Assembly (NCBI GenBank): GCA_016288055.1
Contig: JAEEXZ010000002.1
Coordinates: 20,967 to 84,966 of the forward strand
Reading direction: 5' to 3'
DNA from: Bacteroidales bacterium
Lineage (GTDB): Bacteria; Bacteroidota; Bacteroidia; Bacteroidales; UBA932
DNA length: 64,000 nucleotides
This document shows positions 30,592 to 59,421 of this stretch, one piece after another. Each line of letters starts with the position of its first letter. The stretch's first letter is position 1. The notes under the pieces were generated by a model. The model searched no databases and had not been told where the DNA came from. It saw only the letters and a list, made by a program, of their open reading frames with translations. The translations under genes and the position numbers were made by a program.

Positions 30592-30644
30592 TGTCATCCT
30601 GAGCGCAGCGAAGGATCTATCCGCCGTACTTCATACCCCGCCGC
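30592..30644 (+). repeat. Dispersed 53-bp L repeat
   Basis: TGTCATCCTGAGCGCAGCGAAGGATCTATCCGCCGTACTTCATACCCCGCCGC; also at 45216, 47111 and (rc) 58208. Confidence 0.95.
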
Positions 30645-30910: not shown

Positions 30911-31148
30911 TTCGAGCACGAAAACGGCCTCTCTGGTGCTCGAGTTTAGTCACGGGTGCACCGGGACAAAGGAAAAGTGCACCCGTTGCGAGCGCAAAAA
31001 ATCGCAATCGGCTAAAATAATTGTCGATTTTTATCTGTTTTAGCCGATTCGTGAAGAAATCGCCCGAAAAAATTTATGTTTTGACCGATAGTATCGGGAA
31101 AATAGAGATATTATTGTAGTCCGGTTCTCCACGGTGGAGGACCGGACT
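30911..31148 (+). promoter_or_regulatory. Rpn leader: successive inverted repeats R2-R5 upstream of rpn1
   Basis: TTCGAGCAC..GTGCTCGAG; CGGGTGCAC..GTGCACCCG; AATCGGCTAAAA..TTTTAGCCGATT; CCGATAGTATCGG; AGTCCGGTTCTCCACGGTGGAGGACCGGACT. Confidence 0.85.
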
Positions 31149-31168
31149 AATTTTTAATTATTTATGCT

Positions 31169-32158
31169 ATGCAAGAAAACAAACTGACCAAAGAACAGCA
31201 GCAAAAATTCATGGCCTTCTTGAACGAGTATGAGAAGTGCCGGAACCTCTCTAAGGAAGAGAAAGAGAACCTAATTGTTCAGATCACATCCACCACGTAC
31301 ATTGACCTCCTCTGCGATTGGGCCTTCAAACATGTCTTCGGACACAACAAGGAAAACCTGATGCTACTCCTGAACGACTTCCTTCCGGAAGAGATCATTG
31401 ACATCGAGTACGATCCCAATGAGCGGGACATGCTCCGGGGTGATGACAAGCAGGTCATCATGGATGTCATCTGTCACACTAAGGACCGTAAGTTCATCGT
31501 GGAGATGCAGAAGTGCGGCAGCAACGAGTTCCGTAACCGCATGCTATACTACGGTGCAGCGTCGCTGGCCCGGCAGCTGAATCCGGGCGACAGCTATGAC
31601 AAGTTGGTTCCGGTGTACGTAATCTGCTTCATGAACTTCCGTCTGTTACATGACACAGACCAGTTGGTGTACCGTTTCCAGGTCCGTGAACAAGACTCCT
31701 GTGAACTCTATGGTCAGCAGCTATCCATCTACCTGTGCGAACTGCCCAGATGGGTCAAACCACTGGAGGAAGCGAAGACTCCGATTGAGGAATGGTTTGA
31801 CATTTTGCAGAATATGAGTAACTTTGCAGAGAAACCAGCCACCATCAGCAAACGTTACGATTCCATTTTCGATGCTTGTCAGCGTGGCCGGTTACAAGTC
31901 AAAGAACTGGAACAATACTTTCGCGCCATGATTACAGAACGAGAAGAAAAAGGCATCGCCGCCTTCTACAAGGAAGAAGGTCTCCGTGAAGGCTTCGACC
32001 TCGGTAAGGCCGATGGCTTGGCCGAAGGTAAAGCCGAAGGTAAGGCAGAAGGTAAGGCAGAAGTAGCCAGGGCATTGTTGAAAGATGGAATGACGGCAGA
32101 GAAGGTCATGGCTTATACTGGCTTGTCAAAAGAAGAGATTGAGCACTTGCGTCAATAA
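31169..32158 (+). CDS. Rpn-family recombination-promoting nuclease/putative transposase (rpn1)
   Basis: PD-(D/E)XK-like VIMDVICHTKDRKFIVEMQKCG; C-terminal EGKA repeats; near-identical to rpn3 (58345-59370). Confidence 0.85.
   Translation: MQENKLTKEQQQKFMAFLNEYEKCRNLSKEEKENLIVQITSTTYIDLLCDWAFKHVFGHNKENLMLLLNDFLPEEIIDIEYDPNERDMLRGDDKQVIMDVICHTKDRKFIVEMQKCGSNEFRNRMLYYGAASLARQLNPGDSYDKLVPVYVICFMNFRLLHDTDQLVYRFQVREQDSCELYGQQLSIYLCELPRWVKPLEEAKTPIEEWFDILQNMSNFAEKPATISKRYDSIFDACQRGRLQVKELEQYFRAMITEREEKGIAAFYKEEGLREGFDLGKADGLAEGKAEGKAEGKAEVARALLKDGMTAEKVMAYTGLSKEEIEHLRQ
31928..32158 (+). CDS. Candidate intragenic RpnS-like product of rpn1
   Basis: In-frame internal ATG (AMITEREEKG) at codon 254, the same ATG that starts the duplicated downstream ORF. 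Confidence 0.45.
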   Translation: MITEREEKGIAAFYKEEGLREGFDLGKADGLAEGKAEGKAEGKAEVARALLKDGMTAEKVMAYTGLSKEEIEHLRQ

Positions 32159-32168
32159 CTTTCGCGCC

Positions 32169-32375
32169 ATGATTACAGAACGAGAAGAAAAAGGCATCGC
32201 CGCCTTCTACAAGGAAGAAGGCCTCCGTGAAGGCTTCGACCTCGGTAAGGCCGACGGTTTGGCCGAAGGTAAAGCAGAAGTAGCCAGGGCATTGTTGAAA
32301 GATGGAATGACGGCAGAGAAGGTCATGGCTTATACTGGCTTGTCCAAGGAGGAGATTAACGGTCTGTCCCACTAG
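32169..32375 (+). CDS. Free-standing tandem duplicate of the rpn1 C-terminal segment (RpnS-like)
   Basis: MITEREEKGIAAFYKEEGLREGFDLGKADGLAEGKAEVARALLKDGMTAEKVMAYTGLSKEEINGLSH; starts 10 nt after rpn1 TAA. Confidence 0.75.
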   Translation: MITEREEKGIAAFYKEEGLREGFDLGKADGLAEGKAEVARALLKDGMTAEKVMAYTGLSKEEINGLSH

Positions 32376-32399: not shown

Positions 32400-32431
32400 A
32401 GCTCCGTTTGTCCAACAGACGGAGCTTTTTT
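32400..32431 (+). terminator. Terminator after rpn1/RpnS-like ORF
   Basis: AGCTCCGTTTGTCCAACAGACGGAGCTTTTTT; near-identical to that at 46895. Confidence 0.85.
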
Positions 32432-35530: not shown

Positions 35531-36547
35531 TTACCAGCCGAATCCGGCATTGGTATAGGCGCCGTCCTCTACGACGGGCTCGTAATCCCAGCCGTTGCCG
35601 CCGTCGATGTAGTAGGCATCGGGGGTGTCGCCGTTAACAACGGAGACGAGGAACTCGCGCTCCAGGCTGTAGCGAACCCCGGGCAGGAAGCGGGCGGGAG
35701 AGAGCTTGTTGGCCATGGTGTACTTGGTGCCGTTCTCGTCCACTACATAGAAGGAGAGGACGGAGTTGCCGGTGACGGCCGGCAGCAGGATGGCCGTGAA
35801 GAAGGGATTCTCTGTTGCGTCCTTGGTAATGCGTACGGCATTGGTAAGGGTAACCGTGACGGTGGAAGAACCGCCGGCGGCAGAGAGAGATCCGTTAGAG
35901 AGGGTAAGTTCGCAGGCGCCCACAATGGGACGGTTGTCCGCGATCTTGATGGTAAGCTGCTTGATGTAGATGGCATCCACGGCCGACGTACTCTTGAGCA
36001 CGGGCTTCACGCGGAGCATGGAGGTTACCGGGCCGAACTCGAAGTTCACCGGTTCGTAGCCCTCCGTAAGCGCCGCCGCAGTGAGGTCCGTGGAGGCGTA
36101 GCAGATCTGATACCTGCCGAACTCGCCGCTCTGGGCACTCGGAAGGTTCAGGGCCACCTTGCCGCCGACGCACGAGGACTCCGGGGCAAACATCTGGGGA
36201 TAGTAGGCGCAGAACGTAAGGTCTGCGGCACTCCCCGCCCAGGCGGAACGGCCCTCCGACGAGGCGAACACGGCGTCATTCCCCGTGCGCCAGGTGATGG
36301 GGGCGAACCCGCTGTGGACAAGGGCCGACGTATTGGCGTCGAAACTATAGACGCCCAGATTGTCGTACGAACTCCACACCAGGGTGCCATCATCCTCGTC
36401 GGAGAAGGTTGCCTTGGTGCTCACGGTTGAGCCCGTGAACGTCAAAGGCTCTTCATCCGCCCGGGGGCTCACAGCCCCGCCTTTTGCGCAGCCCGCAATG
36501 ACGGACAGCGACAGCAGCAGAATGATATATGATTGAATCTTTTTCAT
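35531..36547 (-). CDS. Fimbrillin-family lipoprotein (copy 1)
   Basis: Identical from CAKGGAVSPRADEE to the C-terminus with the 38877-39893 product. Confidence 0.78.
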   Translation of the reverse strand: MKKIQSYIILLLSLSVIAGCAKGGAVSPRADEEPLTFTGSTVSTKATFSDEDDGTLVWSSYDNLGVYSFDANTSALVHSGFAPITWRTGNDAVFASSEGRSAWAGSAADLTFCAYYPQMFAPESSCVGGKVALNLPSAQSGEFGRYQICYASTDLTAAALTEGYEPVNFEFGPVTSMLRVKPVLKSTSAVDAIYIKQLTIKIADNRPIVGACELTLSNGSLSAAGGSSTVTVTLTNAVRITKDATENPFFTAILLPAVTGNSVLSFYVVDENGTKYTMANKLSPARFLPGVRYSLEREFLVSVVNGDTPDAYYIDGGNGWDYEPVVEDGAYTNAGFGW

Positions 36548-38876: not shown

Positions 38877-39893
38877 TTACCAGCCGAATCCGGCATTGGT
38901 ATAGGCGCCGTCCTCTACGACGGGCTCGTAATCCCAGCCGTTGCCGCCGTCGATGTAGTAGGCATCGGGGGTGTCGCCGTTAACAACGGAGACGAGGAAC
39001 TCGCGCTCCAGGCTGTAGCGAACCCCGGGCAGGAAGCGGGCGGGAGAGAGCTTGTTGGCCATGGTGTACTTGGTGCCGTTCTCGTCCACTACATAGAAGG
39101 AGAGGACGGAGTTGCCGGTGACGGCCGGCAGCAGGATGGCCGTGAAGAAGGGATTCTCTGTTGCGTCCTTGGTAATGCGTACGGCATTGGTAAGGGTAAC
39201 CGTGACGGTGGAAGAACCGCCGGCGGCAGAGAGAGATCCGTTAGAGAGGGTAAGTTCGCAGGCGCCCACAATGGGACGGTTGTCCGCGATCTTGATGGTA
39301 AGCTGCTTGATGTAGATGGCATCCACGGCCGACGTACTCTTGAGCACGGGCTTCACGCGGAGCATGGAGGTTACCGGGCCGAACTCGAAGTTCACCGGTT
39401 CGTAGCCCTCCGTAAGCGCCGCCGCAGTGAGGTCCGTGGAGGCGTAGCAGATCTGATACCTGCCGAACTCGCCGCTCTGGGCACTCGGAAGGTTCAGGGC
39501 CACCTTGCCGCCGACGCACGAGGACTCCGGGGCAAACATCTGGGGATAGTAGGCGCAGAACGTAAGGTCTGCGGCACTCCCCGCCCAGGCGGAACGGCCC
39601 TCCGACGAGGCGAACACGGCGTCATTCCCCGTGCGCCAGGTGATGGGGGCGAACCCGCTGTGGACAAGGGCCGACGTATTGGCGTCGAAACTATAGACGC
39701 CCAGATTGTCGTACGAACTCCACACCAGGGTGCCATCATCCTCGTCGGAGAAGGTTGCCTTGGTGCTCACGGTGGAGCCCGTGAACGTCAAAGGCTCTTC
39801 ATCCGCCCGGGGGCTCACAGCCCCGCCTTTCGCGCAGCCCGCGACAATCGCGGACAGCGACAGCAGCAGAATGATGCTTAGTTTGTTTTTCAT
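38877..39893 (-). CDS. Fimbrillin-family lipoprotein (copy 2)
   Basis: Near-identical DNA to 35531-36547 over about 1 kb. Confidence 0.78.
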   Translation of the reverse strand: MKNKLSIILLLSLSAIVAGCAKGGAVSPRADEEPLTFTGSTVSTKATFSDEDDGTLVWSSYDNLGVYSFDANTSALVHSGFAPITWRTGNDAVFASSEGRSAWAGSAADLTFCAYYPQMFAPESSCVGGKVALNLPSAQSGEFGRYQICYASTDLTAAALTEGYEPVNFEFGPVTSMLRVKPVLKSTSAVDAIYIKQLTIKIADNRPIVGACELTLSNGSLSAAGGSSTVTVTLTNAVRITKDATENPFFTAILLPAVTGNSVLSFYVVDENGTKYTMANKLSPARFLPGVRYSLEREFLVSVVNGDTPDAYYIDGGNGWDYEPVVEDGAYTNAGFGW

Positions 39894-41147: not shown

Positions 41148-42317
41148 TTATGTTTCTTCGTTCAAGGATGCGCCTTCGGCATAGGCGCCGGGGTTGGAGA
41201 TACCGCTGTTGGTGTCGTCTCCAGACCCATATTTTCCCGCCTCGCTGCCGTCCACGACGCGGTTCTGATAATCCCCTGCCTCAAGGCCGGGCAGGAATTG
41301 GTCAATATATTCGCCGGCGGTGGACGCTTCCACGGAAGGTGCTCCGCCCAGGCTCAAGGTGAGGCTGTAAGTAAAGACGCCGCCGGCTGGCCAGATGTGC
41401 TGGTCCAGAAGCCCTATCTCAAAGGCGGCCTCGAATTCCTCTTCCAGGCTATCGGCCGCATAAATCCCGTATTTCACGCGGAGGCGTGAGCTGGGCGCGA
41501 GGGTCTGCGGGATCAGGTAGAGCACGCCGGCGGGCAGGAGGAAGGAATCCGTGTAGGCAGGGGCCTGCGGGAGGGCGGAGGTAGTCACATCGGCCGCCGC
41601 AAGCGAGCCGTTTGCCGGGGTGAGGCTGTAAGACTCGGTGGCATAGGTGGCCAGATCCTCCGGGGCGGGGCTGTCCCAGTTGTAGCCGCCGCTGTAGAAG
41701 GTGACGGAACTGCTTCCGCGCACGTTCTCCAGCGCGATGGAACGGATCCGGACATCGAGCCCGCGGGAGACGACGCGCCGCACGAAGGGGTCCTCGCCCG
41801 TCCAGCGGGCTTTGAAGACCACCTGCGCGAGCGCGTGCGTAAACACCAGCGGCACGTTGCCGGAGGCCTGCGTCCGGTTCAGGACGGGCGTCGCCAGCAC
41901 CAGGTCTTCCTGCTGCGAGGGGGCCGATGCCACCGTGTAGCTGGCCACCGGAAAATCGCCGGACATCCCCGAGGGGAAGACCAGGGAGCCGTGGGCGGCG
42001 TCTGCGTGGTAGGGAGCGTAGGCATAGAAGGAAAGCGCGCAGCCAAAGGGCCAGTACGCGTTCCCGAGCCAGGTCCCCGAGCCGCCGTCGTAGGTAAAGT
42101 GCCGATTGTCAAGGTAAATGGACGTATCCCAGGCAAAAAGGCCGATCCCCGCGGTCTGCAGGGTTCCGGTAACGGTTTCGCCGGTGCCTTTCGTATGGGC
42201 ATCGGCCCGTGCTACGCATGCGATGGGCTGCCGCCCCCCTTCAGGGAGCGACAGCGGCGTGCACGCGGCTATTGACAGCCACGCCACTATCCATCGGTAT
42301 GCGAAAGGACGGGTCAT
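41148..42317 (-). CDS. Fimbrillin-family protein
   Basis: Paralog of 55943-57157 (DLVLATPVLNRTQAS / VDLCLATPVMDRAAS). Confidence 0.7.
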   Translation of the reverse strand: MTRPFAYRWIVAWLSIAACTPLSLPEGGRQPIACVARADAHTKGTGETVTGTLQTAGIGLFAWDTSIYLDNRHFTYDGGSGTWLGNAYWPFGCALSFYAYAPYHADAAHGSLVFPSGMSGDFPVASYTVASAPSQQEDLVLATPVLNRTQASGNVPLVFTHALAQVVFKARWTGEDPFVRRVVSRGLDVRIRSIALENVRGSSSVTFYSGGYNWDSPAPEDLATYATESYSLTPANGSLAAADVTTSALPQAPAYTDSFLLPAGVLYLIPQTLAPSSRLRVKYGIYAADSLEEEFEAAFEIGLLDQHIWPAGGVFTYSLTLSLGGAPSVEASTAGEYIDQFLPGLEAGDYQNRVVDGSEAGKYGSGDDTNSGISNPGAYAEGASLNEET

Positions 42318-42318
42318 T

Positions 42319-43302
42319 TTAGATACCTGCAGCGACTCCGGATGCTTCAGACCAGCTACCTACAGTGGCCGTCACCTTGATCTCGTGCATCGTGATACCA
42401 ATGTTGTAGGTATACTTGTAGCCAGGCTGCATGACCATATCTGCCGTATCAGGCGTTATTACGACTGAATAGGCATGACCGTCAAGCGTATAGTTCACTA
42501 CAAAAGAAGTAAAGGAAGCCCCATTCGCGGTAGGGTTGGGCACAATCAGAAGGCCGTCACCGACAGTCCGGGCGGTACCATCTACGGTGATGGATGACAC
42601 ATTGGGAACGGAGACATTATTCTCCTTTGTGGCGGAAGCATACGCCGTCGCATCCCATGAAGGGGTCGCAGTCAGCGTTTCAGAAGAGCTATTGTAGTTT
42701 GCAAGATTAACAGTAAGTGTTCCAGTATATGCAGCACCGTTCAACTTGATGCCAGTCACTGCCAGGCCTGTACCGGCAGTACCGGAAACGGTAAACTGTA
42801 CCCAGGACAGGGCATGCTTGAAAGTAAGGGGTACATTGCTGCTGGGGTTCGATGCCTGTGCGCAGGCATACATCAAGTCATGCTGGGCGGTTTTATTGTT
42901 CTCGAGTGCGACAACAACTTTACTGGCATAATTGGCATTATCCGTACCGAATGTGGTCGTGGAACTACCAGCTTTAGTCACGGCAAGGAAGTTAAGTGTT
43001 TCCGAATTAAGCGGCCAATACTTTTTGGAACCCGATACACCGGACCAAGTAGTAGTAGATGATTCATTGGCAAACTCGGCTCCATCAAAATAGTCACCAG
43101 AGCCTGCTGCGTAAGCGGCAACGTAGAAATGATAATCCGTAGGGAAGACCGTGTTGGCAACCGGTGCCTTCGTAGTAGGCTTGGCCAGAAGCGAGAAGGC
43201 GATCTGGCGGGATTCAGGACTGCCTGTGTAGACGTCCTTGACTTTGGCGCAACTCACGAGCGCGAGAGCTGCGACGGAAAGAAGAATAAAGTACTTTTTC
43301 AT
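42319..43302 (-). CDS. Fimbrillin-family (Mfa1-like) lipoprotein
   Basis: MKKYFILLSVAALALVSCAKVKDVYTGSPESRQIAFS; paralog at 53792. Confidence 0.75.
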   Translation of the reverse strand: MKKYFILLSVAALALVSCAKVKDVYTGSPESRQIAFSLLAKPTTKAPVANTVFPTDYHFYVAAYAAGSGDYFDGAEFANESSTTTWSGVSGSKKYWPLNSETLNFLAVTKAGSSTTTFGTDNANYASKVVVALENNKTAQHDLMYACAQASNPSSNVPLTFKHALSWVQFTVSGTAGTGLAVTGIKLNGAAYTGTLTVNLANYNSSSETLTATPSWDATAYASATKENNVSVPNVSSITVDGTARTVGDGLLIVPNPTANGASFTSFVVNYTLDGHAYSVVITPDTADMVMQPGYKYTYNIGITMHEIKVTATVGSWSEASGVAAGI

Positions 43303-43347
43303 AGTAAGGTTTAAATTTGATTGTTTTCTTGTTGATGTATATATGGA

Positions 43348-44280
43348 CTAACCGATGGGAACGTCAATCTCCTCTCCTTGCCACGGGTTCACCGCTGGAG
43401 AAAAGCCGCCCGTTCCTTCCGGTTCAGGAATGTCAATTTCTTCTTCGATTTCGATCACATGCCGGGGTGCGACCACTTTCTCCGTGATGTCCATGGAGTA
43501 GTTGTGTTCGTCGCCGCCCGTGTCACGCATGATAAAATGTACGTATGTTTCGCTTTCTTTGTCGGTCCTTACGCCAAAGGTATTGAAGACGGCTGTGAGG
43601 GTGCCTTTCTCGCGGTTCACCTCCACCGGGAACCAGATGGTGCAAGGTTCGTCGGAGGCCTCTCCCCTGCCGATGAAATAGCTCCGGGACTGGTTGGTCA
43701 CAAATGCCTCGGCACTCTCCACGTACTCGAGGCCTGTGAGCTGGGTCATCTCGAAGGAGAAGGTCTGTACCACTGTGGAAGCATCGGCATGCAAGCTCGC
43801 AGCGCGGATCTCTCCGGTGAATTCCTGCACGGTCACTTCTTCCTTGGCGACGAGGAGGTGGTCCGGCATATAGACGATGGGGTCGTCCAGCGCTTTGGTG
43901 GAGAAGCGCCTGTAGCTCTTCATCTTGGATGCTGTGATGTCGGAGGTGAAGGCTTCGATGGTTTCCAGGGAGCTTTCTCCGCGTATCTGCACGTATTCTG
44001 TTCCGAAGGTATATACTAATAAAGTGTAGGTGCCGGGGGCTATGGTTACGTCGCCGCCTTCGCTTCCTACAAAGTGGGTGTTGGAAAGCATGCCCGTTTC
44101 CCAGCCGTAGAAGTTGGCCATGAAGTGTTCGGGGACGGCTATGGCATTGTCTTCCAGGTCGCTGGAAAGGTCAAGGGCCAGTTCCAGTTTCACGGACTTG
44201 TCCTTTTCATATATCGGCATGAAACGGCAGGAAGGCAGCAGGAGAAGGAGGGCTGCCATACTTGTTACGGCTTTTCTCAT
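43348..44280 (-). CDS. DUF5119-like lipoprotein of fimbrial operon
   Basis: YVQIRGESSLETIEAFTSDITASK conserved with the 52826-53746 product. Confidence 0.6.
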   Translation of the reverse strand: MRKAVTSMAALLLLLPSCRFMPIYEKDKSVKLELALDLSSDLEDNAIAVPEHFMANFYGWETGMLSNTHFVGSEGGDVTIAPGTYTLLVYTFGTEYVQIRGESSLETIEAFTSDITASKMKSYRRFSTKALDDPIVYMPDHLLVAKEEVTVQEFTGEIRAASLHADASTVVQTFSFEMTQLTGLEYVESAEAFVTNQSRSYFIGRGEASDEPCTIWFPVEVNREKGTLTAVFNTFGVRTDKESETYVHFIMRDTGGDEHNYSMDITEKVVAPRHVIEIEEEIDIPEPEGTGGFSPAVNPWQGEEIDVPIG

Positions 44281-44891
44281 TGCCCACCTCCTTTTTTCTT
44301 GAATACCGTGAGGGGGACGACGACGGACACGCCGGCCTTCACCGGGCCGAAGTAGCGGATGTCCTTGGCCATGTCCTTTTCTGCGTAAGCCGGTCCGCCG
44401 GGTTCGTACACCCGGTACTCCCTGGCCCGGGAAAGGAAGAAACCCAGTCCCAGGGAGAACTCCAGGCGTAAACGGTTCCCTATGACGGGAACGGCAAACA
44501 TATAATCTATACCGACGCTTCCGAATCGGCCCTGATAGCCGTGGAAGTTGCGTTCAACATCATATTTCCCGGCCATGCCGAAGGCTCCGACCGAGTGGCC
44601 CTCGAAGGGCTTTGTGAACCAGTATCGGCCCTCAAGGGAAGCGGCGAGGGCCTGGAGGGCATTGGCGTTTGAGCCGAGGGTGCGAGGGATCCAGGGGTAG
44701 TACCAGTCTGCGCCGAGGGTCCAGTTGGCGGCCACGGCTACTTCCACGCCTATGTTGAGAAGGGGTATAGCCAGCGCATTGGTGCGTACGGCAACATCCC
44801 CCGCGCCTGTCTGCGCCGGCCTTGCGGCCATTGCATGCACGGTGATAAATACTGTTAGCAGCGTGAGGATATGTTTACAGGCGGGCCTCAT
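44277..44891 (-). CDS. DUF3575-like outer-membrane protein
   Basis: VRTNALAIPLLNIGVEVAVAANWTLGADWYYPW; paralog at 52203. Confidence 0.75.
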   Translation of the reverse strand: MRPACKHILTLLTVFITVHAMAARPAQTGAGDVAVRTNALAIPLLNIGVEVAVAANWTLGADWYYPWIPRTLGSNANALQALAASLEGRYWFTKPFEGHSVGAFGMAGKYDVERNFHGYQGRFGSVGIDYMFAVPVIGNRLRLEFSLGLGFFLSRAREYRVYEPGGPAYAEKDMAKDIRYFGPVKAGVSVVVPLTVFKKKGGGQ

Positions 44892-45127
44892 TGTGGTTCT
44901 TTTTCGAGGAATAATTAGTCCTCATCTGTTGGGCGCCTGATTACAGTTAGTCTTAGCGCGTTTCATAGTTTAGTTCTTGTTATTCAGTCATCTATGCGGG
45001 GGCTGGTTAGACCCCTTGTCCGTTCAATTTATCGAACGTTTATTTACACACCTTTTGTCCCTATCCCCAGCCTCTCCTCCCTGCGTCCTTTCGTGGGTAT
45101 TTCATGGCCCTTTTTGCAGGGCCCTTT

Positions 45128-45200
45128 GCCCGGCTTCTTGTCCGGTTCTTGCCCGGTTCTTGCCTGGCTTCTTGCCCGGATTCTTGCCCGGCTTCGCTCG
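45128..45200. repeat. Tandem 11-12-bp repeat (TTGCCCGG(C/T)TTC)
   Basis: About six imperfect copies. Confidence 0.8.
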
Positions 45201-45215
45201 GGTGCACTGCCCCCT

Positions 45216-45688
45216 TGTCATCCTGAGCGCAGCGAAGGATCTATCCGCCGTACTTCATACCCCGCCGCCGCTGTATGTACAGAAAATCGGCCTCTCAGAG
45301 CACTTTCGCTGTACATACAGATGCGCAATCGCCCTCTGGCGGCACTTCCCGCAACTGTATGTACAGAAAAACGGCCATCCAGAGCACTTTCGTTGTACAT
45401 ACAGAATTGCAATCGCCCTCTTTGTCGCAAGATTGGGTTGTTTGGGTGCCTTCGAGCACGAAACACCCCCTTCTGGTGCTCGAGTTCAGGTACGGGTGCA
45501 CCGGGGCAAGGGAAAAGTGCACCCGTCGCGAGCGCGAAAAATCGCAATCGGCTAAAAAAAATGACGATTTTTATCTGTTTTAGCCGATTCGTGAAGAAAT
45601 CGACCGAAAAAATTTATGTTTTGACCGATAGTATCGGGAAAATAGACATATTATTGTAGTCCGGTTCTCCAGGGTGGAGGACCGGACT
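45216..45688 (+). promoter_or_regulatory. Rpn leader module of rpn2: L repeat, two R1 units (45271-45320, 45355-45404), R2-R5
   Basis: Colinear with 30592-31148; final hairpin AGTCCGGTTCTCCAGGGTGGAGGACCGGACT at 45658-45688. Confidence 0.88.
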
Positions 45689-45709
45689 AATTTTTAACCA
45701 TCATAACTT

Positions 45710-46633
45710 ATGACAAAGCCTTTGGCACCTGGCGGGAAAGGGAGGTATGCATTCCTGCTGTTTGACTCCACGATGAAAGTCGTCATTTTCAACCCCGAGA
45801 ACGAGAGACTCCTGATTCAGATCCTCGAGCTGCTCATTCCGGGGAAGCACATTGCCGGTATCACATTCATGGACAAAGAGAAACACGGTTTGGTGATTTC
45901 CGAAAAAGTGGCTACCTTTGACATGTTGTGTAAAGATGCAGATACCGGCGAAGAGTTCCTGGTAGAAGTGCAGAATGCGCCGCAGAACAACTTCCAAGAC
46001 CGTGTTCTGTCGTATTCCACCTACCCTATTAGGGAACAAATGGCACGAAGGATCAGCCGCATCCGCGACGGAGAGAAGTTGGACCGGATGGACTACACTT
46101 TAAGGCCGATATACGTCCTGAGCCTTGTGAACTTCGCGCTGGAGCATGAATCGGCCGAAGCCCTGGAGGAGAACTACATCTCCCGCTATGAGCTGAGAAA
46201 CCGCCACAACGCGGAGCTCATGACCCGGAGCCTGAACTTCGTGTTCGTGGAGATGGGCCGAATGAAACTGGGCCCCGAAGACGGTGACAAGTGCAACACT
46301 TTGCTGGAAAAATTCATCTTTTCACTGAAGCACATGCATGAGCTGGACAAGTGCCCGGACAACTTCAAGGAGGACCTGCTGAAAGACCTCTACCGCGCCA
46401 CGGAACTGGCCACCATGCCCATAGAGACAAGAGAATATTACGACCAGAATATGAGAACCGAATTAGACATCATCGCCCAGAAAGACTATGCCGTCAAACA
46501 AGGCCGCGCCGAAGGCGAAGCTAAGGGGCGGGCTGAAGTTGCCAAGGCCATGCTGAAGAACGGTTTGTCCGTAGACATGGTCATGTCGTGTACTGGTCTG
46601 TCGAAGAAAGAAGTTGAGCATCTTGCCCAATAA
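45710..46633 (+). CDS. Divergent Rpn-family nuclease/putative transposase (rpn2)
   Basis: CKDADTGEEFLVEVQNAPQNNFQDRVLSYS (PD-(D/E)XK-like) and RPIYVLSLVNF. Confidence 0.82.
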   Translation: MTKPLAPGGKGRYAFLLFDSTMKVVIFNPENERLLIQILELLIPGKHIAGITFMDKEKHGLVISEKVATFDMLCKDADTGEEFLVEVQNAPQNNFQDRVLSYSTYPIREQMARRISRIRDGEKLDRMDYTLRPIYVLSLVNFALEHESAEALEENYISRYELRNRHNAELMTRSLNFVFVEMGRMKLGPEDGDKCNTLLEKFIFSLKHMHELDKCPDNFKEDLLKDLYRATELATMPIETREYYDQNMRTELDIIAQKDYAVKQGRAEGEAKGRAEVAKAMLKNGLSVDMVMSCTGLSKKEVEHLAQ

Positions 46634-46642
46634 CTGGTCACC

Positions 46643-46873
46643 ATGCCCATAGAGACGAGAGAATATTACGACCAGAATATGAGAACCGAATTAGACATCA
46701 TCGCCCAGAAAGACTACGCCGTCAAACAAGGCCGCGCCGAAGGCGAAGCCAAAGGTCGTGCCGAAGGCAAGGCGGAAGTTGCCAAGGCCATGCTGAAGAA
46801 CGGTTTGTCCGTAGACATGGTCATGTCGTGTACTGGTCTGTCCAAGAAAGAAGTTGAGGAATTGACTGTTTAG
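46643..46873 (+). CDS. Free-standing tandem duplicate of the rpn2 C-terminal segment (RpnS-like)
   Basis: MPIETREYYDQNMRTELDIIAQKDYAVKQGRAEGEAKGRAEGKAEVAKAMLKNGLSVDMVMSCTGLSKKEVEELTV; starts 9 nt after rpn2 TAA; matches internal in-frame ATG 46415. Confidence 0.75.
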   Translation: MPIETREYYDQNMRTELDIIAQKDYAVKQGRAEGEAKGRAEGKAEVAKAMLKNGLSVDMVMSCTGLSKKEVEELTV

Positions 46874-46894
46874 ACACACCAGACTACCACGAAC

Positions 46895-46930
46895 AGCTCC
46901 GTTTGTCAAACAGACGGAGTTGTTTTTTTT
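46895..46930 (+). terminator. Terminator after rpn2/RpnS-like ORF
   Basis: AGCTCCGTTTGTCAAACAGACGGAGTTGTTTTTTTT. Confidence 0.85.
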
Positions 46931-46949
46931 TCTTTCCCGGAGCTGGGGG

Positions 46950-47099
46950 CAACGGCAGCCATTTTCTGGGCCCTTCCACGGAGCCCGGAAAATGGCTGTC
47001 CGTAGCAGGCCCTCCTGCTTTCGAGGGCCTGCGGTGCCTTCTCACCAACACGCAATGGCCGGCGCGCCTCGTTTTGCGCGCCGGCTCCCGTGTAACCAC
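46950..47099 (+). other. Structured three-hairpin element S (candidate ncRNA), copy 1
   Basis: Stems 46952-47003, 47005-47032, 47058-47085; covarying inverted copy at 59582-59732. Confidence 0.7.
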
Positions 47100-47110
47100 T
47101 CGCATAAGCT

Positions 47111-47215
47111 TGTCATCCTGAGCGCAGCGAAGGATCTATCCGCCGTACTTCATACCCCGCCGCTGCTGTATGTACAGAAAAACTGCCTCCCAGAGCACTT
47201 TCGGTGTACATACAG
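47111..47215 (+). repeat. L repeat plus a single R1 palindrome unit (47166-47215)
   Basis: Same L+R1 order as at 30592 and 45216. Confidence 0.92.
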
Positions 47216-47285
47216 ATTCGCAATCGCCTACTTTATCGCAAGATTGGGTCGTTTGGGTGCCTTCGAGCACGAAACAGGCCCTTCT

Positions 47286-47420
47286 GGTGCTCGAGTGGGT
47301 GCAAAGGTGCTTGAAGTGATGCAAAGGAGCTCGAGGGGGTGCAAAGGAGCTCGAGGGGGTGGCAAAGGTGCTCGAGGTGGCGCAAAGGTGCTCGAGTGGG
47401 TGCAAAGGTGCATGAAGTGG
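47286..47420. repeat. Tandem ~20-21-bp repeat GGTGCTCGAGTGGGTGCAAA
   Basis: About seven imperfect copies. Confidence 0.9.
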
Positions 47421-47594
47421 GGCCTGGGCGCTTCAGGGACTAGGTTTTGGGGATGAGACACAGCCGCGAAGGGGCCCCGCGCCAGAGGGAAACTTTACGA
47501 TTTTTGACAAAAAATTTGCATTTGTATTTTTTAGTTCTTATGTTTGCAAAAATATTCGTTCGTTTATTTGAACAGTATTGAAGGCTATTAGCCA

Positions 47595-47759
47595 ATGTTT
47601 AACATTAAAATGAAGGCCATGAAAAACTTTAAGAATGCGCAAGTCTATGACTGCCCGAAGGTCGAGCCCATTGAGCTCAACACCGAATCTACCATCCTGG
47701 ACACCAGCGATGATGAGGGACAGATGACACCTAAGCCGTTTGACCCTATTTACCAGTAG
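47595..47759 (+). CDS. Small peptide ORF (54 aa) leading fimbrial locus 2
   Basis: MFNIKMKAMKNFKNAQVYDCPKVEPIELNTESTILDTSDDEGQMTPKPFDPIYQ; positional analog of 41006-41107. Confidence 0.6.
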   Translation: MFNIKMKAMKNFKNAQVYDCPKVEPIELNTESTILDTSDDEGQMTPKPFDPIYQ

Positions 47760-47781
47760 ATTAATCACCTAAACTCACACT

Positions 47782-48879
47782 ATGAAAAACGGACTCCGAA
47801 ATGGTCCCCTTTGGGGATCATTGGCCGTTGTCCTCATGGTTTCGGGAGCTTGTACGAGAGAAGGGGCATCGGCCCTTAATGGCGAAGCCTTTATCTTGCC
47901 CGGAATCATGGTCGAGTCTCCGTACACGGAGCCGGACGACGCTACAAAATCTGTAGCCGGAGAGGTTCAGTACAGGCTGTATTGGAATGCTGGCGACAAG
48001 ATTGCCATCGTGAACATATCACAGGGCAATCGGATCGACACCTATACCTCTACCGCGCGCACGAACGAAAACGACGGCCTGGCCAGCTTCAAGGCCGATG
48101 CCCAGTACTCTTACAACCCGAACGACCTGGTATTTGCCGCATATCCGGTAGATGCCATCGAGAATATTGCAACCAGCGTGGCTCCCTACAAGATTACGAT
48201 GAGCCTGGCGGACAATACTTCCTATTACATCAAGTCAAACAGCCCCATGTTCTCGCGGAACGACATTCAGGTCTCTCCGCTGATGAATGCAAGCCAGTTG
48301 CATGGTTCCGGAAACAATCTTCCCAGCATCAAGCCCAGCCGCATGACGGGCATGCTCCGCGTTTTGAGCCACATCTCCAACGAGACGCTCAGCCAGGAGC
48401 AGGTATCGGCCCTCACCGTTGCGGTGAAGGGCGTCGCAGGGCAGGCCGATATCGTCTTCTCGGGGACATCGGCCGGCGCGAAGCCGTCCCTGGCCGTGAA
48501 CATGGGCTCGGAGGACCAGATCACCGTGCTTCTGCCCAACAGGCCGAAGATGGCGTCTGCCGCCGCCATTGTTGAGTTCATCCCTGTGTTCCCCATCTGG
48601 ATGGGCCGGGACAATACCCGCGACGGGATTAGCTTTATCTTCACGACGGACCTGTACAAGGCGGCTTTCCACCGCGAAGCCAGCAGTAATGTCCGTTCCA
48701 ATAACGTCACTGCATTCAATATATTTGAAGGGTCCTACACACGGATTGGCTCGGAGGATGCTTTCTCTGCCGACAACCAGTGGTGGTACACCCTCAAAGC
48801 CGGCGGCATGAACAGCCCCGGCAACTTTGACTCCCCCGGCCCGAATATAGGCAGCAGCGCGGGAGGATTTGTTGACTAA
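47782..48879 (+). CDS. Fimbrillin-family lipoprotein
   Basis: Lipobox-like VLMVSGAC; paralog of 39914-41002. Confidence 0.7.
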   Translation: MKNGLRNGPLWGSLAVVLMVSGACTREGASALNGEAFILPGIMVESPYTEPDDATKSVAGEVQYRLYWNAGDKIAIVNISQGNRIDTYTSTARTNENDGLASFKADAQYSYNPNDLVFAAYPVDAIENIATSVAPYKITMSLADNTSYYIKSNSPMFSRNDIQVSPLMNASQLHGSGNNLPSIKPSRMTGMLRVLSHISNETLSQEQVSALTVAVKGVAGQADIVFSGTSAGAKPSLAVNMGSEDQITVLLPNRPKMASAAAIVEFIPVFPIWMGRDNTRDGISFIFTTDLYKAAFHREASSNVRSNNVTAFNIFEGSYTRIGSEDAFSADNQWWYTLKAGGMNSPGNFDSPGPNIGSSAGGFVD

Positions 48880-48902
48880 AAAAGATTTAAAGAGAACAAA
48901 CT

Positions 48903-51900
48903 ATGAAAAACGAATATCTGATTCCGGCATTAGTGCTTTTGATTCTGGCCGGATGTTATAAGGAGCAGGAACCGATACAGGAGGGCTCCATTCCCCGGAA
49001 GGGGACATTCAACTTCTCCAGTTCCACTGGAGAGGTGACCAAAGTGTTGCTGAACTCCGACAATACCCTTTTCTGGGCTAGCGGAGACAAGATTGCCGTG
49101 TATGATTACAAGGCAGGATCCGTATATGCGAAGGATATCGCCGTCCTTACGGGCGGTGAAAGTACGGCTGTGGGTACCTTTACCCCTGCCGTCAAGACAA
49201 CCAATACAGATTGGTATAACGCAGCGGACGCCTCTGACCAGGTGTATAATTTCTATGCATTCTACCCTGGCGGCACAGAAGCCGTGAATCCTACCGATGG
49301 CAAAGTGACCGTGAGTGTTGCTGCCTCCCAGCAGGAATCCGTCGGCATTGGCAAGTACATTGTTAGCTGGGCCAGTGCCAATACCACCAAGCAGAACCTT
49401 GCTGGTGGCTCGGCGCCCAACTTCGCATTCGCTCCCAAGAGCGCATTGCTCAAGCTTACTCTGCAAAACAGTGCTGACATCCCGGTGAAGATTACCTCCA
49501 TCCAGATTAGCGCCGCATCCGTGAATATTGCGGGTGATGCTAACCTGAATCTGGGTACCGGTGTCTTGTCTGCAGGTAGCGGAAAGGTAATTACCTACAT
49601 ACCCAGTAAGCCCATCGAAATTGCTGCCGGTGCAGTTGCTTCTGCACCAGTGTACATTTCATTACTGCCTGGCGCTCCCGATTCCTTGACCGTGACTCTC
49701 AACCAAGCTGGTTTCAAATACAATTCCCCTAGCATTGCTCTGGCGACCATTGAGTCGGGTCATGTGTATTCCAAAGAGGCTGCAATCAGCAGCGTGAGCC
49801 GTGAGCTGGCCATCTCTAATGATAACACAACTAACTTGGCAGATGCCGCCGCAATGGACTCTGATCCGAATCTCTACTATGGCACGTCAAACTGCGTGGT
49901 TATGGATGCTAGCGATATCCAGGGTATCATTGCTATTGGTCTTTACAGTTCCGATGATGGTTACACACGCAACAACTCTTCCGCAGGAAAGGATACTGCG
50001 GTCAAGAAGGCCAAGGTGATTTGGGCGGAGAAAGGTCTTTACGAAGATCCGAACTTCTGCATTGCTTCCGGTACAACGAACATGCTTGTCGTGACCAAGT
50101 CTGCTGGTGTCACTGGCAATGCTTTGATTGGTATCTACGATGGTAACGATGGACTCCTGTGGAGTTATCATGTCTGGTGCCCGTTTGATAAGTCTGTCAT
50201 GAGTGTCACTACAGAAAAGACGTCTACGAAGTATACTGCCTTCAAACTTGCCCTGGGCCAGATTACCGGTGCAGACAGTGATACTTATATGTACTATCAG
50301 TGGGGACGAAAGGACCCGTTGGGACGTGCAAATCCTGGCTTTATTGGGAAGAGCCTCTTGACGGTATATGGCGATGTGCCCACTACTTGGGCTACTGAGA
50401 ATGGCCGCACAAGAACAGGTGTGACGGCAAATAACATTGCATATGCACGTAAAAATCCGACCGTTTTCATTACAGATAATAATTCGACACCTTATGACTG
50501 GTACCCTGGATCTGATGCGACTCAGAACAACAACCTTTGGGTGACGACAAAGGCGACCATTTTTGACCCCTGTCCTCCGGGTTACCGTGTCGCGCCTAAG
50601 ACTCTTTGGGATGGCACCAAGGACAAGGAGGCTAGTCCTTTGTTTGAGTCCGCAGGGCTTTGGTATGTCCTTGGTGGCGGCCGTGATCGCTCGGATGGCA
50701 GCGTCAGCAGTGTGGCGTCCGGCGGCCACTACTGGTCCTCCGAGGTTTCGGGTTCGTCGGTGGGCGCGTACTACTTGTACTTCAATTCGGGCACGCGCTC
50801 GCTCCGAGAGAACATCTACCACCGCGCGAGCGGCTACGGGGTGCGCTGCGTCAAAGAAGACGACAGCAGCATCAAGCGCGAAATAGCCATCTCCAACAGC
50901 AACAGTGGTGAAAACCTGGCCAACTCCGCTGCGCTTGACGCCGCCTATGCCGACGACGAGACCGATGCCTCGTCCCTCTACTACGGTGCAGCCAACTGCG
51001 TGGTTATGGGCGCCAGCGACACCCGCGCGCTCATCGACATCAGGCTCAAGAAGTCTACCGACGGCTACTCCCGCAGCGGCGCCGACCCTTCCCCCAAGGT
51101 GACCGCCGTCAAGAAGGCCAAGGTCATTTGGGCCGAAGCAGACCTCTACCGTGATTCCAATTTCGGTATTGCCGCCGGAACTGTTAGTCAGCTGGTTATC
51201 CAAAAGTCTGCCGGTACCACCGGTAACGCCCTCGTGGGTATCTACGACGAGTCCGACCAGCTCCTGTGGAGCTACCACATCTGGTGCCCCGTGGACCGTA
51301 GCGTAGTGTCCGCCACTTCCGAGGATGCTTCTCCCTTCACCTACCAGGCTTACAAACTGGCCCTTGGTCAGATCCTGGGCGCCGACTGCGACACCTACAT
51401 GTACTACCAGTGGGGCCGAAAGGATCCTCTGGGTCGAGCGGAGAGCTCCTTTACGGGCGGTGGTAGCCTTGCCGCCACGTACGGTGTTGCTTTCTCAAAC
51501 AAAGGCCATTCTTCGACTGGTGAAACTGTTCATAATCTTGGCTACGCTCGAAAGAATCCTACCGTATTCATTTCGGACGGTAACACCACGCCTTACGATT
51601 GGTATAATCCAATGGATAAAACAAATCAGAACGACAACTTGTGGAAGTCCGATATAGCAACCATTTTCGATCCTTGCCCGCAGGGCTACCATGTTGCTCC
51701 CAAGAAACTCTGGGCTGGCAATGCCGCCAAGGTCGCAGGTCCTCTGTTTGAGTCCGCAGGGCTTTGGTATGTCCTTAGTGGCTACCGTGTTCGCACGAGT
51801 GGCAACGTCTACGATGTGGCGTCCAACGGCTACTACTGGTCCTCCGAGGCTGTTGGTGGGGCTTCTCAGTACTCCTACCACCTGAACTTCAGTTCCGGCG

Positions 51901-54934: not shown

Positions 54935-55471
54935 ATGGACGATATCGCGAATGAACTAGCCAAGTTGCATGAACTGGAAGGTTCGGCATTTGTGTTACAG
55001 TTAAAACACATTGTTGCTCACAAGAGCTTTCGGGCTTTGGATGACCATCCTGACGTATTTACGATGGGTGAATGTGGGGAGGACTATGATAACCTATTAG
55101 ATGCGGCCCTGAAGGCCGTTGATTTAGGTTATCGGGTTTTCATTTTACCTAATCCAAAGAGGTCTCGTACGGCGGATTTTATTTTTGTCCGTCGTGGAAT
55201 ATACCGGATGTATGATTTGAAGACCATTCGCGGGAAATCGTCTGTGGGGAATCGATTGAGGGAGTCCATCGGCCAAACAAATCACGTACTGCTTAACTTA
55301 CAAGTTCGCTATAATGGAGGCCGGCTTGCCGCGGAAATCCGCAGCTTCTTTGAAATAAACCCCAAAGCATGTGAGGTGCTCGTTTTTAAGGGGAAACAGG
55401 TGTTTACCATAAAACGAGGGTATGCCTTACAAAAGGATTTCCTAATCAAATTCAGGAAGAGATATGGATAG
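54935..55471 (+). CDS. Nuclease-like protein resembling CdiA-CT/contact-toxin domains
   Basis: ALKAVDLGYRVFILPNPKRSRTADFIFVRRGIYRMYDLKTIRG and SIGQTNHVLLNLQV resemble restriction-like/BECR toxin folds; AT-richer than neighbours. Confidence 0.45.
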   Translation: MDDIANELAKLHELEGSAFVLQLKHIVAHKSFRALDDHPDVFTMGECGEDYDNLLDAALKAVDLGYRVFILPNPKRSRTADFIFVRRGIYRMYDLKTIRGKSSVGNRLRESIGQTNHVLLNLQVRYNGGRLAAEIRSFFEINPKACEVLVFKGKQVFTIKRGYALQKDFLIKFRKRYG

Positions 55472-57158: not shown

Positions 57159-57611
57159 ATGAACAGATTCATTTATCTCATACTGCTACTGGCGACCTGT
57201 ACTTGCCGAAACTCCGCGCTCACGCCCGCCGAATACTATAATCTGGGCCGATACGCCCGTCTGGACGGAGACTGGTCGGCCGCCGTCGGGTACTTTGAGA
57301 AGGCGCTGGATGCGGCGGAATGGGCTGGTGACGACTACTACCGGGGCTACGCATGCCAGCAGCTTGCCGCCATGTGGATCCTGGCCGGGGAAAAAGCAAT
57401 TGCTTTGTCTTACTCCATAACGGCGGTTGCTGCCCTTGAGGCCTGCGGCGAGACTGCCGGAGCCTTCCTCTCCCAGCAGATTATCAAGGATTGCGAGGCG
57501 TCACCCGTACAAAAGGCCGCGGAGGTGAAGCCAGCGGTAGAGGGTTGTGCGACTGCAGCCGATGTCGCGCGCAATGGCCGCCACGGGCCGATGGGAATTC
57601 AACAGCAGTAG
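57159..57611 (+). pseudogene. 3'-truncated TPR-like lipoprotein gene
   Basis: Paralogy to 33235-32513 stops after ETAGAFLS (about 57475); the ORF tail is antisense to the recombinase C-terminus. Confidence 0.65.
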
Positions 57612-58106
57612 AATGACGTCCCTGTGCCGGTCAAGTTTTTTCATGACGGTTGTACTGCCCTTCGGCCTGCCCAGGGCTACGCCCTCGGCTTTCTTGCGAG
57701 CCAGCGCTTCGCGGGTTCGGATGGAGATAAGCTGACGCTCTATCTCGGCCGCAAGCCCGAACGTAAATGCCAGCACCTTTGACTGGATATCCTCCCCCAG
57801 ACGAAATCTTTCCTTGACGGTCCACACTCGACATTCCTTCTTGAGACAGATGTTCAGGATGTTCATGATCATGAACAGGCTTCGGCCCAGACGGGAGAGC
57901 TCGGCACAAATGATGACATCTCCCTTTCGGACTTGCTTCAGAAGCTCTCCCAGTTTACGTTCTGTTGTTTCCAGTGTCCCGGAAACTGTTTCCTGAATCC
58001 AGACATCGACGTGCAAGTTCTCACTCCGGCAATAATTAATGATTTCGAAACGCTGATTCTCCAGCGTCTGACGGTCTGTGGAGACACGGATATAAGCATA
58101 AGTCAT
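57501..58106 (-). CDS. Serine recombinase (resolvase/invertase family)
   Basis: MTYAYIRVSTDRQTLENQR, ICAELSRLGRS, GRPKGST, C-terminal HTH VAAIARDIGCSRTTLYRWL. Confidence 0.92.
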   Translation of the reverse strand: MTYAYIRVSTDRQTLENQRFEIINYCRSENLHVDVWIQETVSGTLETTERKLGELLKQVRKGDVIICAELSRLGRSLFMIMNILNICLKKECRVWTVKERFRLGEDIQSKVLAFTFGLAAEIERQLISIRTREALARKKAEGVALGRPKGSTTVMKKLDRHRDVILLLLNSHRPVAAIARDIGCSRTTLYRWLHLRGLLYG

Positions 58107-58207
58107 AACGGTTAACAAATAGTTTACCCTTATGTAAACAAATAGCCTGCTTAAAGGTGGTGACTTGTCCTGACCACCCACTCGTGAATCAGAGGGGACC
58201 ATGCAAT

Positions 58208-58260
58208 GCGGCGGGGTATGAAGTACGGCGGATAGATCCTTCGCTTCGCTCAGGATGACA
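58208..58260 (-). repeat. L repeat, inverted copy
   Basis: Reverse complement of the 53-bp L repeat (one variant base in GAGCGAAGCG). Confidence 0.93.
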
Positions 58261-58274
58261 ATGAGTATAAAATA

Positions 58275-58296
58275 ACTCCGCCGGGATGGGCGGAGC
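58275..58296 (-). terminator. Candidate terminator after rpn3
   Basis: Minus-strand GCTCCGCCCATCCCGGCGGAGT followed by TATTTTA. Confidence 0.6.
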
Positions 58297-58309
58297 AATT
58301 AATGATAGA

Positions 58310-58344: not shown

Positions 58345-59370
58345 TTACTGATTCAAGGCTTCGATTTCGTTCTTTGAGAGGCCGGTATATGCCATGACCT
58401 TCTCTACCGTCATTCCATCTTTCAACAAAGCCTTGGCTACTTCGGCCTTACCTTCTGCCTTACCTTCTGCCTTACCTTCTGCTTTACCTTCGGCCAAACC
58501 GTCGGCCTTGCCAAGATCGAAACCTTCGGCCTTACCGAGGTCGAAGCCTTCACGAAGGCCTTCTTCCTTGTAGAAGGCGGCGATGCCTTTTTCTTCTCGT
58601 TCTGTAATCATGGCGCGAAAGTATTGTTCCAGTTCTTTGACTTGTAACCGGCCACGCTGACAGGCGGCGAAAATCGAATCGTAACGTTTGCTGATGGTGG
58701 CTGGTTTCTCTGCAAAGTTACTCATATTCTGCAAAATGTCAAACCATTCCTCAATCGGAGTCTTCGCTTCCTCCAGTGGTTTGACCCATCTGGGCAGTTC
58801 GCACAGGTAGATGGATAGCTGCTGACCATAGAGTTCACCGGAGTCTTGTTCACGGACCTGAAAACGATACACCAGTTGGTCCGTGTCATGCAATAGGCGG
58901 AAATTCATGAAACAGATAACGTAAACCGGAACCAACTTGTCATAGTTATCACCCGGATTCAACTGCCGGGCCAATGACGCTGCTCCGTAGTAAAGCATAC
59001 GGTTACGGAACTCGTTGCTGCCGCACTTCTGCATCTCCACGATGAACTTACGGTCCTTAGTGTGACAGATGACATCCATGATGACCTGCTTGTCGTCACC
59101 CCGGAGCATGTCCCTCTCGTTGGGATCATACTCGATGTCGATAATCTCTTCCGGTAAGAAGTCATTCAAGAGCAGCATCAGATTATCCTTGTTGTGGCCG
59201 AAGACATGTTTGAAGGCCCAATCGCAGAGGAGGTCGATGTACGTGGTGGATGTGATCTGTACGATCAGGTTTTCCTTCTCTTCTTTCGAGAGGTTCCGGC
59301 ACTTCTCGTACTCGTTCAAGAAGGCCATGAATTTTTGCTGCTGTTCTTTGGTCAGTTTGTTTTCTTGCAT
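58345..59370 (-). CDS. Rpn-family nuclease/putative transposase (rpn3)
   Basis: Near-identical to rpn1 except for an expanded EGKA/EGFDLGKA repeat tract; no downstream duplicate. Confidence 0.85.
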   Translation of the reverse strand: MQENKLTKEQQQKFMAFLNEYEKCRNLSKEEKENLIVQITSTTYIDLLCDWAFKHVFGHNKDNLMLLLNDFLPEEIIDIEYDPNERDMLRGDDKQVIMDVICHTKDRKFIVEMQKCGSNEFRNRMLYYGAASLARQLNPGDNYDKLVPVYVICFMNFRLLHDTDQLVYRFQVREQDSGELYGQQLSIYLCELPRWVKPLEEAKTPIEEWFDILQNMSNFAEKPATISKRYDSIFAACQRGRLQVKELEQYFRAMITEREEKGIAAFYKEEGLREGFDLGKAEGFDLGKADGLAEGKAEGKAEGKAEGKAEVAKALLKDGMTVEKVMAYTGLSKNEIEALNQ

Positions 59371-59390
59371 AGCATAAATAATTAAAAATT

Positions 59391-59421
59391 AGTCCGGTCC
59401 TCCACCGTGGAGAACCGGACT
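59391..59421 (-). promoter_or_regulatory. Leader hairpin R5 of rpn3
   Basis: Minus-strand AGTCCGGTTCTCCACGGTGGAGGACCGGACT followed by AATTTTTAATT; identical to the rpn1 hairpin. Confidence 0.88.

Follow-up and report, generated by a model that had tools for sequence, protein, structure and literature searches.

A predicted stand-alone RpnS behind a full-length Rpn nuclease gene in a Bacteroidales genome and its probable origin by recombination between rpn alleles

Introduction

Why should a gene for a full-length Rpn nuclease be followed, within a few nucleotides, by a second open reading frame (ORF) that repeats its own C-terminal part? This arrangement occurs twice in the window analyzed here, a stretch of 64,000 nt from a Bacteroidales genome (a metagenome-assembled draft of 90 contigs, 87.5% complete). 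It had been attributed, from the sequence of the window, to independent duplication at one functional boundary; our analysis supports that original prediction only partly. Translation from an internal start within rpn genes yields the C-terminus alone (RpnS), which acts as an antitoxin, and pairing is decided by how many four-residue repeats its first helix contains (Zhong et al. 2023, PMC10327210). In Escherichia coli, rpnE is followed by a separate RpnS (ypaA), as is rpnC in some strains, and the two are of independent origin (PMC10327210); the stand-alone RpnS layout is in this sense already published (2023).

Results

The gene in question, rpn2 (45710..46633, + strand), encodes a full-length Rpn protein (RpnL) of 307 aa, predicted to be a toxin or phage-defence nuclease. 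In profile searches, its product matched PF12784 (E 9.5e-33; 114.3 bits against a curated cut-off of 27.4) and TIGR01784 (E 2.5e-17; 63.6 bits against 52.1). Alignment with relatives showed that residues D19, D71, E86, and Q88 of the PD-(D/E)XK core are invariant. They correspond to D11, D63, E82, and Q84 of RpnA, whose catalytic D, D, E, and Q are needed for activity, and the D19-D71 distance of 52 equals the D11-D63 spacing of RpnA (PMC5350276). PADLOC gave no useful match, and the AlphaFold model of the full-length protein (pLDDT 57) was left out of the analysis.

An internal ATG at 46415 opens a module of 72 aa that runs to the end of rpn2 (46415..46633, +), the predicted cognate antitoxin. 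The internal Met is kept among relatives. The module matched the RpnA-S crystal structure 7TH0 in a profile comparison (E 0.003), and its predicted fold superimposed on 7TH0 in Foldseek at 0.8 Å rmsd over 37 columns (the last 37 residues) with a probability of 0.97. The TM score was 0.75 on the target, and the overall E value of 1.1 is that of a short protein with a model pLDDT of 67. Length differences among copies and alleles of the module were mostly multiples of 4, corresponding to variable repeats in the first helix.

The second copy, hereafter the solo, is an in-frame ORF of 76 aa (46643..46873, +) that repeats the last ~72 residues of rpn2 and begins at the same Met. The stop codon of rpn2 (TAA, 46631-46633) is followed 9 nt on by the ATG of the solo at 46643, as had been predicted, and the solo ends with TAG at 46871-46873. 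The predicted recurrence of AACTGG(C/T)CACCATGCCCATAGAGAC was also found, with starts at 46404 and 46632, 1-2 nt from the positions first given. It opens a direct repeat of 135 nt with 94% identity (46404-46538 and 46632-46766), which is continued by a second stretch of 119 nt with 87% identity (46500-46618 and 46740-46858). The repeat takes in ~10 bases 5' of the ATG and leaves out the last five residues, which are unrelated between the copies (EHLAQ in the first, EELTV in the solo). The solo also carries one additional four-residue repeat (GKAE), an insertion that the original prediction had missed. An intrinsic terminator, common to the rpn1 locus, lies 3' of the solo (46885..46930, +; fold -22.4 kcal/mol, z -7.5). 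At the rpn1 and rpn2 loci, a terminator stem stands 3' of the solo, and the stretch between full-length gene and solo showed no such stem; therefore, the two genes are probably carried on one transcript. By homology, the 76-aa ORF is best read as a stand-alone RpnS of the known type, here in a Bacteroidales genome.

Comparison of the two rpn2 copies revealed about 17 differing sites, and all those outside the last six codons were silent: 8 (to ~10) synonymous and 0 nonsynonymous changes. The rpn1 copies likewise differed by 8 synonymous and 0 nonsynonymous changes outside the last six codons. A neutral solo would predict about 15-16 nonsynonymous changes (P about 1e-7 for each of rpn1 and rpn2), and dS between intragenic and solo copies was about 0.27-0.30. 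The lack of amino-acid substitutions outside the last six codons indicates that the solo is under selection on its protein; by this divergence, the copies are old enough to have drifted apart, with the solo retained as a protein. The same data bear on two trivial explanations. Mis-assembly could be suspected in a draft of this kind, yet it would not turn one sequence into copies that differ by silent sites, one four-residue repeat, and the last five residues, and the layout recurs in many other genomes, including complete E. coli genomes; an assembly artefact is thus ruled out for practical purposes. A decaying remnant without function would fit the solos of L036, L089, and L113, which show no constraint, and a relative in which the nuclease is broken and the module alone is left (L122, below). 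Against this, the rpn1 and rpn2 solos have kept frame, start, and terminator intact besides their amino-acid sequence, and we consider decay very unlikely for them. No excess of silent changes was found in the solos of L036, L089, L113, and L081; therefore, not all solos are maintained.

The predicted recurrence of the plan at rpn1 was borne out. This gene (31169..32158, +; 329 aa; internal ATG 31928; PF12784 E 2.3e-37) is followed 10 nt past its stop by a solo of 68 aa that repeats its tail (32169..32375, +). The first copies end in EHLRQ (rpn1) and EHLAQ (rpn2) and the distal copies in NGLSH and EELTV, as predicted. The rpn1 solo has an 8-residue deletion, previously overlooked, and so has two four-residue repeats fewer than the intragenic copy; its terminator stem (32402..32424, +) is near-identical to that at the rpn2 locus. 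Profile searches of the draft genome returned one further PF12784 gene, rpn3 (58345..59370, -; 341 aa; E 1.8e-38), a paralogue of rpn1 that the prediction had not noticed. Ahead of the internal Met, in the nuclease part, rpn3 and rpn1 are identical in 249/253 residues (98%), with a dS of 0.37; rpn3 has no solo.

A 14-bp perfect stem followed by ATTTTT precedes all three genes (31118-31157, +; 45658-45697, +; 59382-59421, -). These leader hairpins are identical or 1 nt apart, and the one at rpn2 has a fold of -24.9 kcal/mol (z -6.6); it could be an attenuator. Searches allowing up to 3 mismatches found the hairpin nowhere else among 300 family genomes, and none was found in viral contigs. A near-identical hairpin stands 5' of the rpn2 ortholog in L122. 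A conserved regulatory RNA was considered and rejected, given an occurrence confined to the three genes of this genome and the L122 ortholog.

The relation between the rpn1 and rpn2 loci is mixed. The solo tails group with their respective genes (94-95% identity, versus about 45% between rpn1 and rpn2), and a single inherited duplication was rejected on this ground despite the common flanks. However, the 5' flanks, which the prediction had missed together with the shared terminator, are near-identical (398/434 aligned nt, 92%), and the two loci also share the leader hairpin, a similar end of the first copy, and the 3' terminator. They therefore do not represent two clean independent events; they resemble copies of a single cassette setting, with the coding parts exchanged. 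Independence of solo events comes from the wider sample of relatives and not from the two cases in the window. The common junction CAATAACT, proposed as the target of a specific mechanism, dissolved on inspection into a Gln codon plus stop (CAA TAA) and then CT, which are each gene's own pre-ATG bases (...TACTTTCGCGCC-ATG and ...GAACTGGCCACC-ATG).

Several other features were observed in the window. On the flanks of the rpn genes are copies of a dispersed repeat, CATCCTGAGCGCAGCGAAGGATCTATCC...CCCCGCCGC with TGTATGTACA palindromes (30595-30644, 45219-45268, and 47114-47163, +; 58208-58257, -), and two of them, direct copies about 1.9 kb apart, enclose rpn2. No terminal inverted repeats or target duplication were seen around rpn2 in a general repeat scan of 42000-49000. 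Downstream of rpn2 lies a run of about 20-nt repeats, GGTGCTCGAG(T/G)GGGTGCAAA (47280-47440). A serine recombinase of the resolvase/invertase type (57504-58298, -) adjoins rpn3 near a fimbrillin-like gene cluster. Two fimbrillin-like (Mfa_like_1) genes (35531-36547 and 38877-39893, -) are identical but for their first residues and stand in tandem with paralogous large lipoproteins. A 178-aa protein (54935-55471, +) has a weak CdiA_C match (E 0.007).

We next consider the relatives. The survey drew on 300 family genomes (108 with a relative), 393 order genomes, and one genome-contig scan, and yielded 230 distinct full-length genes, 215 of them with at least 350 nt downstream. The proposed search for separate C-terminal modules behind full-length rpn genes was productive: a solo of the gene's own tail type was present in 24 of these 215 Bacteroidales loci (11%), in a sample biased toward rpn2 relatives and high-scoring PF12784 genes. 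The matches were clearly separated from background. Not all of the 24 are neat modules; a few (L239, L087) are longer remnants. Two solos occurred at L025, L031, L036, L083, and L089. The predicted recurrence of duplication at one boundary held in that solos recur in distantly related rpn genes, in frame and under selection. It failed as to the boundary: elsewhere, the distance from the start of a copy to the internal Met ranges from 3 to about 40 codons, and the constant feature among solos is an intact small-protein ORF, not one breakpoint.

Orthologous loci often lack the second copy, and where it is present it is usually intact. No solo was found at the G296 ortholog (58% identity) or behind the rpn2-like genes of L120 and L121, as at rpn3. 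The gene in L120 (L120:3001-4062) lies immediately behind pgi and carries many tandem four-residue tail repeats. The rpn2 ortholog of L122 (rumen assembly RUG395) is interrupted by a stop after 122 codons and has lost most of the nuclease to a deletion, with an 80-aa RpnS ORF retained, a state as expected if the antitoxin outlives the toxin or during decay.

The origin of the solos was approached through the relationships of their tails. One account is that the 3' part of rpn2 was duplicated in tandem where it stands and yielded a spare cognate antitoxin that raises dose only. In its favor, no tail is closer to the solo than that of rpn2 itself (96%), most solos lie directly behind their full-length gene and recur in 11% of loci, and a local origin of the rpnC and rpnE solos was inferred from trees (PMC10327210). 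Nevertheless, simple duplication does not account for copies that carry only silent changes up to the last 5-6 codons and are unrelated from there onward, and the repeat number differs.

The nearest tail was that of the gene itself for 21 of 30 copies, and most of the exceptions fell in two subfamilies. In the larger of these, the C-terminal head of the solo was only 26-56% like the head of its own gene, and at four loci a gene from a different locus had a head 88-100% like it. The L051 solo with its 3' flank matched the single-copy tail and flank of L048 at 96.7% over 512 nt, whereas the head of L051's own full-length gene was only 53% alike; the same tail is thus the sole gene's in L048 and a solo behind a different nuclease and tail in L051. 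Within-species history could be read in E. coli only, because the collection holds one genome per species. In the E. coli allele L140, which lacks a solo, the nuclease part matches that of MG1655 at 98.9% identity. The head of L140 and the following 40 nt agree at 100% with the corresponding stretch of the MG1655 solo ypaA, and the head is only 67% identical to that of MG1655 rpnE. Where the history of a site is readable (L051 versus L048, MG1655 versus L140), a single-copy allele at the site therefore has the distal tail as its own, and with either direction of change tails have been exchanged or displaced there. These sister-site matches suggest that, besides duplication, tails have been displaced and exchanged, and they make duplication in place an unlikely account. 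Within the window, each rpn2 copy still has the other as its nearest relative, and the same is true of the rpn1 copies; the sharp break at the last six codons, together with the terminator that follows the distal copy, would fit displacement between close alleles.

L140 has the exact form of a fusion between nuclease and solo tail, and such a fusion was also reported in E. coli (PMC10327210). Solos might accordingly be silent donors whose recombination with the intragenic tail switches the tail of the nuclease, as in CDI and Rhs loci. The occurrence of solo heads on full-length proteins elsewhere and the arrays of two different solos are consistent with this. On the other hand, the solos here are under purifying selection as proteins, ypaA/RpnES is produced as a protein in E. 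coli (PMC10327210), and switching within one strain was not seen; we regard the donor role as possible but doubtful.

Furthermore, the number of four-residue repeats was compared between toxin tails and solos. It was unequal in 21 of 24 pairs of full-length gene and solo, and all examined rpnE alleles with a solo and all examined rpnC alleles of E. coli differed in the same way. Toxin-toxin pairs of like identity from different loci were unequal as often (108/133; Fisher P 0.57), and selection for mismatch between toxin and solo was rejected, general hypervariability being sufficient. Because one additional repeat abolished neutralization of RpnC (PMC10327210), a solo may often not inhibit the adjacent toxin. 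The rpn2 solo, one four-residue repeat off its neighbor, may be such a case. Repeat mismatch and non-cognate heads are not discussed for E. coli by Zhong et al. (PMC10327210).

Discussion

We think it fairly likely that rpn2 is a gene-within-gene toxin-antitoxin and defence locus, that the 76-aa ORF is a stand-alone RpnS, and that this ORF originated by recombination between rpn alleles. The full-length protein would be a DNA nuclease toxic to the cell that makes it, with the C-terminal module from the internal ATG as antitoxin. Judging from the spacing, the solo may be translated from rpn2 mRNA through re-initiation 9 nt past the stop. It would then add antitoxin, with supply and specificity freed from the nuclease reading frame, if it has antitoxin activity in this organism, as homology suggests. 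Most likely, a nuclease bringing its own complete tail was placed in front of a tail already present from the same lineage, and this older tail kept its position, its former 3' end, and its terminator; we infer such displacement for rpn2 itself in preference to duplication in place. The old antitoxin would be favored, since a cell without it would be vulnerable to the old toxin, whether its own or that of kin.

In a broader form of this idea, alternative antitoxin tails would be stacked at Rpn loci. With every new toxin-tail allele, the previous tail would be pushed downstream, and the old tails, expressed and recombinable, would record past toxin specificities and might confer immunity to earlier or foreign Rpn variants. 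We offer this as a conjecture and consider it rather improbable in its full extent.

These results extend stand-alone RpnS from E. coli to rumen-type Bacteroidales and to a second nuclease subfamily. They show solo RpnS to be frequent, at about one locus in nine, and subject to selection, with displaced tails as a testable origin. If solos neutralize non-neighboring Rpn toxins, this would explain how fast, non-matching changes of repeats and tails are survived.

Among known systems, the locus is closest to the RpnL/RpnS gene-within-gene toxin-antitoxin systems, with which it shares the catalytic residues of the nuclease, the internal Met, the helix of variable four-residue repeats, and a three-helix C-terminal module like 7TH0; this kinship is known here by homology. 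As in E. coli rpnE-ypaA (RpnES) and rpnC-rpnCS, a separate in-frame C-terminal copy stands behind a full-length Rpn gene, at 12-68 nt in E. coli, and its last residues have diverged and its repeat number is unequal in every allele examined. The nuclease domain is PF04754 in E. coli rpnE and rpnC and PF12784 here. Unlike the E. coli genes, those described here have no Shine-Dalgarno sequence, a motif by which Bacteroidota starts cannot be confirmed. Displaced modules are also familiar from CDI and Rhs loci, in which orphan toxin/immunity modules lie downstream, an older C-terminal module behind a newer one, and can recombine back. By contrast, the module displaced at the rpn loci would be the antitoxin tail of an intracellular nuclease and not a secreted toxin.
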